A stretch of 37,271 nucleotides of DNA from an uncultured Candidatus Actinomarina sp. (lineage in GTDB: Bacteria; Actinomycetota; Acidimicrobiia; Actinomarinales; Actinomarinaceae): NCBI GenBank assembly GCA_902510965.1, contig CABXDM010000008.1:1-37271 (forward strand), given 5' to 3'. This document shows, piece after piece, positions 14,806 through 21,960 of this stretch (positions within the stretch are counted from its first letter, which is position 1; each line of letters starts with the position of its first letter). The translations under genes and the position numbers were made by a program. The notes beneath the pieces were generated by a model. That model ran no database searches. It saw nothing but the letters and a program-made list of their open reading frames with translations, and had not been told where the DNA came from.

Positions 14806-16074
14806 ATGTCTAACCCAATCGAAGAAAAATTCTTATCAAGCTTTGATATTAACAAGAAATACGTTGTGGCTTTAAGTGGCGGTGTAGACAGTGCTGTATT
14901 GGCTTTCTTAGCTACTAAGTATTCTAAAAATGTAAGAAGTGTTTTTGTCAATCACAACCAAAATCATTCAAGTGACTTAGAACTACAAGCAAAATCTATT
15001 GCTAACCGGCTAGGTATTGCTTTTGTCTCACTACAAACCTCTTTAGAGCCCAATGCATCTGAAACACAAATGAGAAATGTGAGAATGAAAGAATTGAACA
15101 TGAACATTGAAGAAGAAGAATATCTCTTATTTGGACACACCCTATCTGATAGAGTTGAAACATTCTTTATGAATTTATTTAGAGGTACACGTTTACATGG
15201 TTTAAAGTCAACTCCCATGCAGGTGAACAAAATACTAAGACCCTTATTGGATATATCCAAGCAAGAAGTCATTATCTATGCTGAAAAAAACAAAATCAGT
15301 TACCTTGATGATGAAACAAATTTTGATAATCAAATAAATAGAAATTGGATTAGAAATGTTATTTTTGACGAGGTCAAAGAAAGATTTACCGGTTCATTAG
15401 AAGATAAAATCAATCAAATAATTAGCGAGGTAGAGTATGCACTTCCAGGAGAAACAAAGTTTTTAAAATTTATTAAGTCAAGCAAAGGGTATGTTGAGAT
15501 TCCAATCTCTATGATAAATTTTAATAATCCTGAATTATTATCATCTTTCTCAATTATTGCAAAACTACTAGGCATGTCAGGAATGGAGTCAAAGGATATC
15601 GATAAAATAAAAGAAGTCATTGCTTCTGGTAACCAAGTATCTTTTTATGGAGACTGGTTTTGCTTGAAATCATCCTCACTTTTAATTTTTGTTAACAAAC
15701 ATCTTTGGTGCGAACAATCTAACCAAGACAAATTAAGTTATGGATATTTAAATCTTGTAAAAGTTGAAAAGGTAACGTCTCACAATAGGTGGAATTTAGC
15801 AATTCCACCTCTAAGTAAAAACATTTCTACGAGGACGCTAGAGAGTGGTGACAAGATAAGGGCTAATGGAACTGACCAAAAAGTATCTGAAGTTATGCGG
15901 TCTTTTGGTATTAAAGGATTAATGAAAGAGGTTTGGCCGATGATGGTTCTCGATGATGAAATAATTTGGCTTCCAGGAATAAGAAAGTCAGACGCAGCTC
16001 TTGACTTCCATAAAGAGAATTATTCACATATAATAAGTGCTTCTGTAGAAAAGGGTAAAATTGAAAATTTCTAA
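14806..16074 (+). CDS. tilS: tRNA(Ile)-lysidine synthase
   Basis: VALSGGVDSAVLAFLA PP-loop, FGHTLSDRVETFFMNLFRG, RPLLDISKQEVI. Confidence 0.94.
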   Translation: MSNPIEEKFLSSFDINKKYVVALSGGVDSAVLAFLATKYSKNVRSVFVNHNQNHSSDLELQAKSIANRLGIAFVSLQTSLEPNASETQMRNVRMKELNMNIEEEEYLLFGHTLSDRVETFFMNLFRGTRLHGLKSTPMQVNKILRPLLDISKQEVIIYAEKNKISYLDDETNFDNQINRNWIRNVIFDEVKERFTGSLEDKINQIISEVEYALPGETKFLKFIKSSKGYVEIPISMINFNNPELLSSFSIIAKLLGMSGMESKDIDKIKEVIASGNQVSFYGDWFCLKSSSLLIFVNKHLWCEQSNQDKLSYGYLNLVKVEKVTSHNRWNLAIPPLSKNISTRTLESGDKIRANGTDQKVSEVMRSFGIKGLMKEVWPMMVLDDEIIWLPGIRKSDAALDFHKENYSHIISASVEKGKIENF

Positions 16075-16573
16075 AACGTTGATATCTAAGGAAGAGATTG
16101 AAAATAAAATCTCTGAAATTGCAAACAAAATTAATGATAAATACGAAGGAGAAGAGTTAGTCGTAATTGGCATTTTGAAAGGTGCCTTTATTGTAGTGAG
16201 CGATCTAGCAAAACAACTGCAGCTTGATGTAACTTTTGATTTTATGAGTATCAAATCTTATTATGGCTCTGAATCATCAGGACAAATAAAAATCGTAAAA
16301 GATTTAGAATACGATATCACAGACAAGAATGTTTTGATTGTTGAAGATATTTATGACACCGGACTCACACTTTCAAACTTAAAAAAACTACTTGAATCAA
16401 GAAATCCAAAAAGTATTGAAATTTTCTGCATGTTTGTTAAAAAAGACGTCGCTGAAGATCCAATTGAAATAAACTACAGCGGTTTCGAAATCGGTCCTGA
16501 ATTTGTAGTGGGTTATGGGCTTGACTACAACGGAAAATACCGTGAACTCCCTTATCTTGGTGTACTTTCTTAA
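16061..16573 (+). CDS. hpt: Hypoxanthine phosphoribosyltransferase (alternative start)
   Basis: VVIGILKGAFIVVSDLA, FMSIKSYYG, VLIVEDIYDTGLTLSNL PRPP loop. Confidence 0.95.
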   Translation: MKISKTLISKEEIENKISEIANKINDKYEGEELVVIGILKGAFIVVSDLAKQLQLDVTFDFMSIKSYYGSESSGQIKIVKDLEYDITDKNVLIVEDIYDTGLTLSNLKKLLESRNPKSIEIFCMFVKKDVAEDPIEINYSGFEIGPEFVVGYGLDYNGKYRELPYLGVLS

Positions 16574-16618
16574 ATTTGATAATTACTTTTAATCGTGCGG
16601 GTATTAAATTAAAACATA

Positions 16619-18472
16619 ATGGATAATAAAGAAAAAAATAAAAACAGATCATTTTTTTTATATGCTGCTTTAGGGCTGTTAATCTTTTTTGGCGTTCAGC
16701 AATACAACGAAAATATAAATGCACCTGAGCAGGTTTCTTTCTCTGAATTTAAATCTTTGATTAATGAGAAAAAAGTTGAAGAAGCAATTATTAAAGAGCA
16801 GTCAAACACAGTGCATTTTGAAGTTATAGGTAAAAGTAAAGTTTTTAAAACTGAATATCCAGAGGGTTTTGAAGGGGAAGTTTTTCAACTACTAGTAGAT
16901 GAAGAAATTGAGTTAAGTACTGACACTGAACCTGCTGGCTTTCAGGATTACTTTATAGCATTTTTACCATGGCTATTCCTTGCTGGCTTCATGTTTTATA
17001 TGTTTTCTCAAGTGAGAACAAACGGCAATCAAATTATGCAGTTTGGTAAATCCAAAGCTAAAGAAATGGACGAAGAAACTCCTAAGGTCACATTTAGTGA
17101 CGTCGCAGGAGCTGAGGAAGCAAAAGAAGAACTTGAAGAAATAAAAGAATTCCTTAAATCTCCTGAAAAGTTTAACAATCTAGGAGCAAAAATTCCCAAG
17201 GGCGTTTTACTAGTTGGACCACCCGGTACAGGTAAAACCTTACTAGCAAGAGCTGTAGCTGGGGAATCTAATGTTCCATTTTATAGTATTTCTGGTTCAG
17301 ACTTTGTTGAAATGTTCGTTGGTGTAGGAGCAAGTCGTGTTAGAGACTTGTTCAAAAAAGCAAAAGATTCGTCTCCAGCAATTATCTTTATTGATGAGAT
17401 CGACGCTGTCGGAAGAATGCGTGGAGCAGGTCTTGGTGGGGGTCATGATGAACGAGAACAAACATTGAACCAGCTTCTTGTAGAAATGGATGGATTTGAG
17501 TCTAATCAGGGAGTAATTCTTATGGCAGCTACAAATAGACCAGATGTGCTTGATCCAGCACTATTAAGACCTGGACGATTTGATCGGCAAGTAATTGTTG
17601 ACAGGCCTGATTTAGATGGTCGAACACAGATTTTAAAAGTCCACTCTAAAGATAAACCGCTTGCAAAAAATATTGACTTAAAAACAATAGCTAAACAAAC
17701 TCCTGGATTTACAGGAGCTGATTTAGCAAATTTATTAAATGAGTCAGCATTACTTGCTGCAAGAAAGAGTAAAAAGACTATTTCAAATACAGATATCGAA
17801 AATTCAATTGATAGAGTTCTCGCCGGGCCTGAGAAAAAAAGCAGACTTATGAGTGACGAGGAAAAGAAAATAATCGCATATCATGAAACTGGACATGCAT
17901 TAGTTGGTTGGGCGCTTCCAAATGCAGATCCGATACATAAGGTTACAATCATTCCAAGAGGCAGGGCTTTAGGGTATACACAGGCTTTACCTGAGAGAGA
18001 AAAGTATCTTTCATCAAAAGCTGAATTAAAAGATCGATTAGCGATGTTGATGGGGGGAAGAGTTGCGGAGGAACTAGTATTTAAAGACCCAACAACAGGT
18101 GCGTCTAATGATATTGAAAAGGCTACTGAAATTGCTAGACGAATGGTCATGGAATTTGGTATGAGTGATAAGCTAGGGCCAATGTTATTCGGCAAGGGGT
18201 CAAACGAAGTATTTCTTGGAAGAGATTATGGTAGACAGCAAGATTATTCGGATGAAGTAGCTTCCTCCATAGACGATGAAGTAAAAATTCTTCTTAATGA
18301 TGCTCACGCAATAGCTGGTAAAATCCTTAAAAAATTTAAAAAACAAATGGATGCAATGGTTGAGGTCTTGATGGAAAAAGAAACAATTGATAGAGAAGAA
18401 GTTTCAAGAATTTTTAAATCAATAAAAAAAGTTAAAATTCATGGCTCCGGAAAAACTTTAAAGCTGGCATAG
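16619..18472 (+). CDS. ftsH: ATP-dependent zinc metalloprotease FtsH
   Basis: [41 protein letters not shown] zinc site, two N-terminal TM segments. Confidence 0.98.
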
Positions 18473-19029
18473 TGAGTAAGTTAGATAAGAGTGATGTACT
18501 CAATGATTTACTAAATTTTATTCAAAAAACTACCAGTAAGCCTGAAGAGGAATCTCTAGCTATATTGCAAAAGTTCACTACAGAGATAGAAAAAAAATTA
18601 TCTCAAAATTCATCTGAATTATTAGAGATCTTTACGAGTCTTGATGAAGTCACACACAGCCAGCCAATATACTTAAGCAGTATTCCCTTCACAAGCTTGT
18701 GTGAACATCATTTACTTCCTTTTTTTGGTTCGTTTGACATAGCTGTGTTTCCAAGAAATAAAATTGCAGGAATTTCAAAGTTTAGTGATTTGGTTAATCA
18801 CCTTTCAAATGACTTAACCCTGCAAGAAAAAATTACGCAAAAGGCAGCTGAACTTATTCATAAAGAATTAGAACCTGAAGGAGTGTTTATAAGAGTTACC
18901 GCTAAACATCTATGCTCAGATTTAATGAATCCAAAAAGTACAGTTTCAGACGTAATTACGACTTTTAGCACAGGTATCTATGAATTAGATTATTCACTCA
19001 GGTCAGAAGCTATAGCGAACTTTAAATAA
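18472..19029 (+). CDS. folE: GTP cyclohydrolase I (divergent)
   Basis: IPFTSLCEHHLLPFFGSFDIAVFP, GISKFSDLV, TAKHLCSDLM. Confidence 0.9.
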   Translation: MSKLDKSDVLNDLLNFIQKTTSKPEEESLAILQKFTTEIEKKLSQNSSELLEIFTSLDEVTHSQPIYLSSIPFTSLCEHHLLPFFGSFDIAVFPRNKIAGISKFSDLVNHLSNDLTLQEKITQKAAELIHKELEPEGVFIRVTAKHLCSDLMNPKSTVSDVITTFSTGIYELDYSLRSEAIANFK

Positions 19030-19030
19030 G

Positions 19031-19774
19031 TTGTTTTCTTGGGATAATTTTTTAGGAAAGCTAACCAACAACTTACTTGGAATAGTGAATATCACAAATG
19101 ATTCATTTTCAGATGATGGTTTACTTAACAGACAAGAAAAAATTCCTGAAGTTTACGAAACGGCATCAAAAAAAGGTATTAACTTTGTTGATATTGGCTG
19201 CATCTCAACTAAACCAAATTTTAAATCTATAACAACAGAAGAAGAGTTACTCAGATTAAATTCATTTCTAGAACATAAAAATGATAATTTTTACCACTCA
19301 ATAGACACTTTCAATCCAATTATCGCTGAAGAAGCTTTCCAGAACAATTTTTCTGTTGTTAATGATGTTTCTGGAGTTCAAGACCAGAGAATGATAACTA
19401 CTTTGAGAAAGCATTCTGCCGGATTGATACTTACCCACAGAAATAATTATTCATCATCGATTCACGAAAAATCAGATTACAAAGATATTGTTAGGGATGT
19501 AAAAAATGACCTTATGAAACAGGTTGAAAATATTTTAGAATCTGGTGTAAATAGGGATCAAATAGCAATAGATGTTGGACTTGGTTTTGGCAAAACCCAA
19601 GAGCAGTCTGCAACACTCTTTGAATCCATTGGTCAGTTTGTCGGAGACTATCCTTTAGTTGTAGGCTACTCAAGAAAAAAATTCACACAGTTATTAAACA
19701 CTTCCGATGAAGAATTACTTAATCACTGCCAAAACCAAGGAGTTTCTTTGGTCAGGTTACACTTCATTGATTAA
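19031..19774 (+). CDS. folP: Dihydropteroate synthase (TTG start)
   Basis: LLGIVNITNDSFSDDG, SIDTFNPIIAEEA, VVNDVSGV, VGLGFGKT, GYSRKKF. Confidence 0.93.
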   Translation: MFSWDNFLGKLTNNLLGIVNITNDSFSDDGLLNRQEKIPEVYETASKKGINFVDIGCISTKPNFKSITTEEELLRLNSFLEHKNDNFYHSIDTFNPIIAEEAFQNNFSVVNDVSGVQDQRMITTLRKHSAGLILTHRNNYSSSIHEKSDYKDIVRDVKNDLMKQVENILESGVNRDQIAIDVGLGFGKTQEQSATLFESIGQFVGDYPLVVGYSRKKFTQLLNTSDEELLNHCQNQGVSLVRLHFID

Positions 19775-19780
19775 AAAATT

Positions 19781-19803
19781 TGTTAAGCTACTATGGTTTA
19801 ACA
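19781..19803. repeat. Inverted repeat TGTTAA-N11-TTAACA upstream of the pseudophosphatase-like gene
   Basis: 6-bp perfect arms, extendable by one wobble pair. Confidence 0.5.
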
Positions 19804-19817
19804 CCTAGGAAAGGCTG

Positions 19818-20288
19818 ATGATGGCAGGACTAAAACCAAATGATTTTCACTGGATAATCGAAGGCAAATTAGCAGTTTCAGAGTGTATAGGTGGTGGAGG
19901 CCTTACTTCTAGAAAAATCAGAAGAGAAGAAGAGGTTCAGTGGTTAAAAAGTAATGGGATCAACTCTATATTCTCATTATTAGAAACTGATTTCAACCTA
20001 ACAAACTATCAAGAAGTTGGCTTTAGGACATATCATTTTCCGTTAGGGGAGAATCCTCCAAAAGAGTCTATTTCGGTCATTTTTGAAGCCATTAAAGAGG
20101 CTCTCTCTGACAAAGAAAGAAAGTTATTAATTCATAGAGAGTACTTAGATGAAGAGGTTCCGGGGATATTGGCTGGTTATTTAATTTATTCAAAACTATT
20201 AGAGGATCCTATATTTTCTAGAACAATTCTTGAACGTATTTTAGGGAAACCTTTATCACCTAAAGCAATTGCTTTGATTCCAAGTTAA
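19818..20288 (+). CDS. Dual-specificity/tyrosine phosphatase-like fold protein with degenerate active site
   Basis: LKSNGINSIFSLLE...YQEVGFRTYHFPLGENPP scaffold followed by LLIHREYLDEEVPGILAGYLIY at the HCX5R P-loop position. Confidence 0.65.
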   Translation: MMAGLKPNDFHWIIEGKLAVSECIGGGGLTSRKIRREEEVQWLKSNGINSIFSLLETDFNLTNYQEVGFRTYHFPLGENPPKESISVIFEAIKEALSDKERKLLIHREYLDEEVPGILAGYLIYSKLLEDPIFSRTILERILGKPLSPKAIALIPS

Positions 20289-20294
20289 TAGGAA

Positions 20295-20642
20295 ATGTCT
20301 TACGACATTAAAATTGATGGAATAAAAACACATGGTAAACATGGTGTTTATGAGTTTGAAAAGATAGAAAATCAACTATTTTTAATTGATTTACATATAA
20401 TACTTAACAATGACACTGTTGTTGATGATCAAATAGAGACAACTATTAATTATGCGGACTATGTTGAGAAGGTCGAAGAATTGGTTGCATCATCTTCATT
20501 TAATCTTATTGAGACATTAGCTAAATATATATATGAAAATTTAATTGATGCAAAAATTAATAAATTAATCATTACAGTCCATAAACCAAATACAGCTCTT
20601 AGCAAAAAGACCAAAGACATCAGCGTTACCTACAGTGGATAA
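20295..20642 (+). CDS. folB: Dihydroneopterin aldolase
   Basis: IKIDGIKTHGKHGVYEFEKIENQLFLIDL, TINYADYVEKVEE, FNLIETLAKYI. Confidence 0.94.
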   Translation: MSYDIKIDGIKTHGKHGVYEFEKIENQLFLIDLHIILNNDTVVDDQIETTINYADYVEKVEELVASSSFNLIETLAKYIYENLIDAKINKLIITVHKPNTALSKKTKDISVTYSG

Positions 20643-21108
20643 CTATCAGGGAATTATTCTTTCATTAGGATCTAATATTGGTGATCGTCAAAAAAATTTA
20701 AGGAATGCTCTGATTGAGCTTGAAAAAATAGCTCAAATAAATCTGGTTTCATCAATTTTTGAATCAGATGCATTGTTGGAAACCAATCAGAGAAATTTTT
20801 ATAATATAGTGACTGAAATTGAGTACTCAAGAACTTCTTCAGATCTCTTAAATGAAGTTAAAGAAATAGAAGATTTCCTTGGTAGAAAAAAAACTTATCG
20901 ATATGGTCCTCGATTAATTGACATCGATATCATTTTTTTCAACAACGAAAATAATTCTTCTAAAGAGTTAACAATTCCACACTACGATTGGAGAAATAGA
21001 TTGTTTGTAGTTGAACCACTCTGCGAAATCATCAATGTATTTGACATCGCTGACTTTAATTTAAATGATCAAAAAGTAGAAAAAAAAGGTAATATAAGTT
21101 ACAAGTAA
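20635..21108 (+). CDS. folK: 2-amino-4-hydroxy-6-hydroxymethyldihydropteridine pyrophosphokinase (GTG start)
   Basis: ILSLGSNIGDRQKNLRNAL, YGPRLIDIDIIFF, LTIPHYDWRNRLFVVEPL. Confidence 0.95.
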   Translation: MDNYQGIILSLGSNIGDRQKNLRNALIELEKIAQINLVSSIFESDALLETNQRNFYNIVTEIEYSRTSSDLLNEVKEIEDFLGRKKTYRYGPRLIDIDIIFFNNENNSSKELTIPHYDWRNRLFVVEPLCEIINVFDIADFNLNDQKVEKKGNISYK

Positions 21109-21138
21109 TTACGGGCACCAATATAGGGCACGATAAAT

Positions 21139-21960
21139 ATGAAAAATGTAAAACAAATAACAAATGATATGTATGAAGAAAATCTATTTTTTGTACCAAC
21201 TATGGGATCCCTGCACAGAGGACATTTTTCATTAATAGAACAAGCTAAGAAATCTGGATTAAAAACTATTGTCTCAATTTTTGTAAACCCAAAACAATTC
21301 AATGACACTAATGACTACCAAAAATATCCCAGGGACATTCAAAAAGACTCTATAAATTTAGAGAAGCTAAACGTAGATTATCTTTTTACACCTGATGAAA
21401 ACTATGTATATGGTGATAGTTTTTTAGATCTGCTTAGTTCTGGTCATATAGGCGAACAGTACGAGGGTAAATCAAGACCGGGACACTTCGATGGAGTTCT
21501 GACTGTAGTGAATAGATTATTTGAGCTAATAAAACCTAAAAAAGTCATTTTTGGGAAAAAAGATGCACAGCAATTATTTTTAATTAAAGATTATATTGGG
21601 CGCACGAATAAAGATATTGACCTTCTTGAAGGGGAAATAGTACGTGATAAATTGGGCTTAGCGTTAAGTAGTAGAAATTTACTTTTGAGCGCTAAAGGCA
21701 AGAAAACTGCCAGTGGTTTAAAGAAACAACTCGATACTCTAAAAGAAATATTTCTTGAAACTGGTCTAGTAAGTACATCAATTGAAAGAACACTACAAAG
21801 GAATAAAGATGGCCTACTTGAAATTGATTATCTCGAAATATTAGATAAAGATACTTTTAGTGCAATAAGTGATAACACAAAAAATTTTATAATTATTATT
21901 GCTGGATACGTAGAGGGAATTAGGTTGATAGACAACATTGATTTCAGAATAGAGGGATAG
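21139..21960 (+). CDS. panC: Pantoate-beta-alanine ligase
   Basis: FVPTMGSLHRGHFSLIEQAK, SIFVNPKQF, PGHFDGVLTVVNRLFELIKP, FGKKDAQQ. Confidence 0.95.
   Translation: MKNVKQITNDMYEENLFFVPTMGSLHRGHFSLIEQAKKSGLKTIVSIFVNPKQFNDTNDYQKYPRDIQKDSINLEKLNVDYLFTPDENYVYGDSFLDLLSSGHIGEQYEGKSRPGHFDGVLTVVNRLFELIKPKKVIFGKKDAQQLFLIKDYIGRTNKDIDLLEGEIVRDKLGLALSSRNLLLSAKGKKTASGLKKQLDTLKEIFLETGLVSTSIERTLQRNKDGLLEIDYLEILDKDTFSAISDNTKNFIIIIAGYVEGIRLIDNIDFRIEG

Follow-up and report, generated by a model that had tools for sequence, protein, structure and literature searches.

A predicted dual-specificity phosphatase-fold pseudophosphatase, near-universal in Acidimicrobiia, encoded between folate synthesis genes of Candidatus Actinomarina

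Among the folate synthesis genes of an uncultured Candidatus Actinomarina sp. lies a gene for a small protein, designated here X, which is predicted to have kept the fold of a phosphatase and lost its active site. We consider it fairly probable that X is a near-universal housekeeping protein which descended from a DUSP23/VHZ-like dual-specificity phosphatase (DSP), then lost the PTP chemistry and most likely serves, without catalysis, as a binding protein or adaptor. Its place among the fol genes seems to reflect inheritance of the neighbourhood and no functional tie.

Gene locus and neighbourhood

The gene for X occupies positions 19818..20288 on the forward strand of the window (the whole stretch of 37,271 nucleotides that was analysed) and is an intact open reading frame, starting with ATG, free of interruptions and encoding 156 amino acids. 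The start may be the second ATG, at 19821, since relatives begin at the second Met. A sequence-only reading of the window had placed X between folP and folB in a folE-folP-folB-folK run, and the Pfam matches of the flanking genes, all on the same strand, bear this out: folE (GTP cyclohydrolase I, 18472..19029, FolE, E 3e-34), folP (dihydropteroate synthase, 19031..19774, FolP, E 6e-46), which ends 43 bp upstream of X, folB (dihydroneopterin aldolase, 20295..20642, FolB, E 3e-24), which begins after a gap of 6 bp, and folK (HPPK, 20635..21108, HPPK/FolK, E 3e-33). Further upstream, also on the forward strand, tilS (14806-16074), hpt (16061-16573) and ftsH (16619-18472), named by reading their translations rather than by family search, make up the upstream part (14806..18472) of a block that is conserved in the class. 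In most families this block reads tilS-hpt-(ftsH)-folE-folP-X-folB-folK-panC-coaX-lysS, with X between folP and folB/folK, so the operon position seen in the window recurs in relatives. As no terminator-like site was found in 18400-21300, X and the fol genes probably share a transcript. Phage or plasmid origin of X was rejected, no phage or plasmid match to it being found.

Predicted fold

Searched alone against Pfam, X gave CDKN3 as its only match, a sub-threshold one (E 0.13), with 12.4 bits vs a cut-off of 20.7. The best DSPc E-value over 30 members of the X family was 0.004, short of the curated cut-off, and X scored below the curated cut-offs of DSPc, PTP-SAK and CDKN3 alike. Pfam enzyme families gave sub-threshold matches only, and no NCBIfam model matched X. 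A profile built from 26 X sequences retrieved the PDB DSP 25xa with an E-value of 2.7e-10 and human VHR with 3e-3; the corresponding values for a 30-member profile were 6.9e-12 and 6e-6. AlphaFold models were obtained for X of the window (pLDDT 90, pTM 0.86) and of Ilumatobacter coccineus (pLDDT 92), and the top PDB matches of both in Foldseek were DSP/PTPs only (VHZ/DUSP23, KAP and Tk-PTP; E 2e-8 to 2e-6, TM 0.70-0.80). The profile searches and the two models agree in predicting a DSP/PTP fold for X; the DSP/PTP-like layout proposed in the sequence-only reading, which had named structure prediction as the check, is thus upheld.

The closest solved relative by profile is 25xa, a 'Dual specificity protein phosphatase family protein' in the PDB, which shares with X the N-terminal W-V/I-x-x-x-x-L-A strand pair and the LAxSxxPGGxG loop. 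Unlike X, it has HCRAGYGRTG-type P-loop residues and lacks a six-residue insertion, which the profile alignment places within residues 22-42 of X. The fold is likewise common to X and the atypical DSPs (VHZ/DUSP23, KAP/CDKN3, Tk-PTP), whereas X has neither HCX5R nor the general-acid Asp, has HRxxRR inserted ahead of helix 1 and is acidic where their P-loop binds phosphate.

Loss of the active site

Four motifs are typical of PTPs (PMC12848742): the HCX5R P-loop, the loop with the general-acid Asp, the Q-loop and the E-loop. In X of the window, the former P-loop reads HREYLDE (codons 106-112; 20133..20153, forward strand): H106-R107 replaces the expected HC, and the Arg at +6 is missing. The place of the general-acid (IPD/WPD) loop is taken by PLGENPP (codons 75-81; 20040..20060, forward strand), a place that has no conserved Asp. 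These residues, and with them the Cys-to-Arg change and the loss of the P-loop Arg and glycines, had been quoted correctly in the sequence-only reading.

The loss of Cys, Arg and general acid is conserved in the relatives. HCX5R, scored as (H/V)CX5R(S/T), occurs in 0 of 125 unique relatives, and HCX5R is also absent from all 20 orthologs of another class, so that no close homologue with an intact motif was found. Residue 107, the nucleophile site, itself varies (R, G, H, C, A, M, S, N, Y or K across the 125), and position 111 is D, S, G or N. In the same set His106 is unchanged, position 108 is D or E, with N in a few, and position 112 is D or E throughout. Site 77, that of the general acid, has changed in 56 parsimony steps, which puts it at the 99th percentile, and positions 77-78 are among the most variable of the protein. 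The absence of HCX5R from 125 relatives, together with the variable general-acid site, argues that classical PTP chemistry, as judged from the alignments, has been lost from X class-wide. A sequencing error or a local mutation in the window was rejected, the same loss being found in all relatives, as was chance (HCX5R missing from 125/125). Cys at position 107 is sporadic (L037, L162 and an other-class family) and never paired with Arg at +6, and a revertible, Cys-only loss was rejected on these grounds. It should be noted that genuine PTP-SAK paralogs with HCX5R occur in some X-bearing genomes, because of which X is placed as a separate, putatively long-dead line.

As in the eukaryotic STYX and MK-STYX, for which a non-catalytic role has been proposed, the DSP fold of X is combined with loss of the catalytic Cys (PMC10211241). 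In STYX, one change restores activity (PMC10211241). Unlike STYX, X has also lost the P-loop Arg and glycines, and phosphate binding is not expected: STYX-type proteins lack the Cys alone and keep the Arg, whereas in X the Arg at +6 is missing and residues 108/112 are acidic. X is bacterial, and its kinship to STYX and MK-STYX is seen at the level of the fold only.

Distribution

A profile search detected X in 146 of 149 Acidimicrobiia genomes. The three negatives are Acidimicrobium ferrooxidans (G046) and G407, both of one family, and G383, in which the fol genes are cut by contig ends; Ilumatobacter coccineus (G057) carries X. Across 41 genomes from 8 genera of the Acidimicrobium family, X was found in none; an empty result of this search carries little weight by itself, but a sister profile was positive in 146/149 genomes of the class. 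Outside the class, orthologs were present in two families of one other class of the same phylum (20 of 120 genomes), and 16 of these 20 loci (L173-L192) adjoin a hotdog thioesterase-like ORF and not fol genes. X is vertically inherited and near-universal in Acidimicrobiia, and older than the families of the class. Two peculiarities of individual members were observed: the P-loop of the other-class orthologs is replaced by HCDRxxEW, HVxRPGEW or HGNRHTDF, and one ortholog (L049:6895-8331) has a long Lys/Ala-rich C-terminal tail, 455 amino acids in total, unlike all other members.

A published search for Acidimicrobiia-specific proteins began from the proteome of A. ferrooxidans, which lacks X (PMC5962788), and X has partly gone unnoticed for this reason. 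It was also missed because neither an NCBIfam nor an above-threshold Pfam model was found for it in the searches made. Open-access literature on Acidimicrobiia and dual specificity phosphatases contained no account of it, and that on pseudophosphatases and Actinobacteria nothing relevant; most subscription journals lay outside the scope of these searches.

Selection

For three Actinomarina pairs, dS being saturated in two of them, the dN/dS of X was 0.015-0.017, a sign of extreme purifying selection, and for the same pairs we obtained 0.14-0.15 for folP, 0.16-0.21 for folB, 0.08-0.14 for folK, 0.07-0.20 for folE, 0.02-0.03 for ftsH and 0.03-0.15 for hpt. The values for X are thus about 4-14 times below those of the four fol genes, and of the eight operon genes that were tested in Ca. 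Actinomarina, X shows the tightest constraint. Median identity across the genus was 87% for X, 85% for ftsH and 44-55% for the fol enzymes, which evolve fast between the species of Ca. Actinomarina (medians of 45% for folP and 44% for folB), with ftsH, hpt and X at 85-87%. Because class-wide identity of X (35%) is not above that of several neighbours and dS is saturated in two pairs, extreme constraint is documented for Actinomarina only. A decaying gene was rejected given the dN/dS of 0.015. The proposal in the sequence-only reading of a pseudophosphatase kept by selection fits both the dN/dS values and the presence in 146/149 genomes.

Independence from folate synthesis

HPPK is missing from nine X-bearing genomes, in one of which (G031, Actinomarina) X adjoins the end of a contig. 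The other eight (G418, G041, G173, G195, G444, G404, G421 and G437), of which G418 is a single contig of 99% completeness, lack FolK, FolB, FolE and FolE2. Rescue by FolE2 was rejected, FolE2 being found in 0/8. None of the eight has a FolP-grade gene: Pterin_bind finds in them the weaker kinds of match that in other genomes accompany a true FolP, and several of these lie in long, MetH-sized frames. In three of the eight, the g252 genomes, the order is tilS-hpt-ftsH-X-panC-coaX, folE/folP on the left and folB/folK on the right being gone and X remaining in place. In the f3 group (Ilumatobacter-type), the loci inspected have X directly after tilS on the same strand, and hpt-ftsH-fol-panC-coaX-lysS are gone from the locus. 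The reverse is seen in the Acidimicrobium family, where the two genomes inspected (G046 and G407) have contiguous folE, folP, folB and folK without X. Co-occurrence of X with FolE/FolP/FolB/FolK was accordingly not found, given eight genomes with X and no fol genes and 41 without X, the fol block being present in the two inspected. Since X is kept without fol genes and the fol block is kept without X, folate synthesis does not need X, and X does not depend on folate synthesis. The sequence-only reading had suggested a possible link of X to a phosphorylated pterin; neither such a link nor one to FolE/P/B/K is supported, in view of the reciprocal losses and of the retention of X in place after loss of the flanking fol genes in one lineage.

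Two observations concern folate metabolism of the class itself. Genes of de novo folate synthesis have been lost in two groups, several f3 genomes and the genus g252 (L155-L158, L161-L163). Furthermore, FolB and FolK are present in I. coccineus (L038, G057), where neither FolE (PF01227) nor FolE2 (PF02649) was found for the first pterin step.

Possible function

The most constrained part of X is residues 22-42, a loop and the start of helix 1 (ECIGGGGLTSRKIRREEEVQW; 19881..19943, forward strand). Of the 25 least variable sites of the protein, 11 lie in these 21 residues (p 2.6e-5), which follow the family-specific pattern E-R-P-G-G-x-G-x-x-H-R-x-x-R-R-x-E-E-x-x-W. For the rim loops as a whole, clustering of conserved sites gave a p of 0.065, the signal sitting in residues 22-42. 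We suggest that X would act through this N-terminal stretch (E22-W42), an invariant loop and helix rich in arginine. On the grounds of topology and sequence position, E22, R23, G25, G26, H31, R32, R35, R36, E38, E39 and W42 may form one binding surface with N60, Y64, H106 and the acidic residues 108/112; the latter five would line the old pocket, and the ligand or macromolecule bound would be a conserved one. The pocket would have turned from anion-binding to acidic, and phosphate binding of the STYX type is therefore not to be expected of it. That X is non-catalytic in the biochemical sense is a prediction from its sequence.

The main rival to an adaptor role is that X is a repurposed enzyme with another chemistry, e.g. 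a metal-dependent one involving His106, Asp/Glu108, Asp/Glu112, Glu22/39 and the arginine cluster, and with a substrate outside folate metabolism. The tight conservation of His106 and of acidic residues at 108/112 in 125 sequences, next to a varying nucleophile site, makes it possible that the pocket has been put to new catalytic use, and constraint at the housekeeping level is in keeping with it. However, X matches no enzyme family of Pfam or NCBIfam, no catalytic motif can be recognised in it, position 108 alternates between D and E, with N in some, and 111 varies among D, S, G and N; we regard such an enzyme as unlikely. We find it quite improbable that X is a partner of TilS or tRNA, on the side of the block that serves tRNA and translation, with the arginine-rich loop binding RNA or a translation protein. 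The possible tie is one of neighbourhood, X remaining beside tilS on the same strand in the f3 loci inspected after the rest of the block is gone, and the conserved loop is basic; yet one locus (L050) has X with folB/folK but not tilS, the other-class orthologs adjoin the thioesterase-like gene instead, and an inherited neighbourhood accounts for the link to tilS equally well.

A folate auxiliary, binding or dephosphorylating a pterin phosphate or scaffolding FolE/P/B/K, would fit the gene order, since most families of the class have X flanked by folP on one side and folB/folK on the other. It is hardly credible in view of the eight genomes that retain X without FolE, FolE2, FolB, FolK or FolP-grade genes, the persistence of X in place after flanking fol loss, the Acidimicrobium family, from which X is absent and whose two inspected genomes have the fol block intact, and the missing phosphate-binding Arg.

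Significance

To our knowledge, pseudophosphatases have so far been described almost wholly from eukaryotes. X is a predicted bacterial pseudophosphatase that is near-universal in a class and occurs in the abundant marine Ca. Actinomarina. A bolder view, which we hold to be rather doubtful, is that the class turned a DSP into a core housekeeping factor whose old pocket would have acquired a new ligand or chemistry (His106, acidic 108/112 and the arginine loop), under approximately FtsH-level constraint in Actinomarina, and which escaped notice partly through the list based on A. ferrooxidans. The comparative data separate X from folate metabolism and thereby stop a plausible but wrong annotation based on gene neighbourhood. 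They raise a question which may be tested in a cultured strain such as I. coccineus, namely which conserved partner this dead phosphatase serves.
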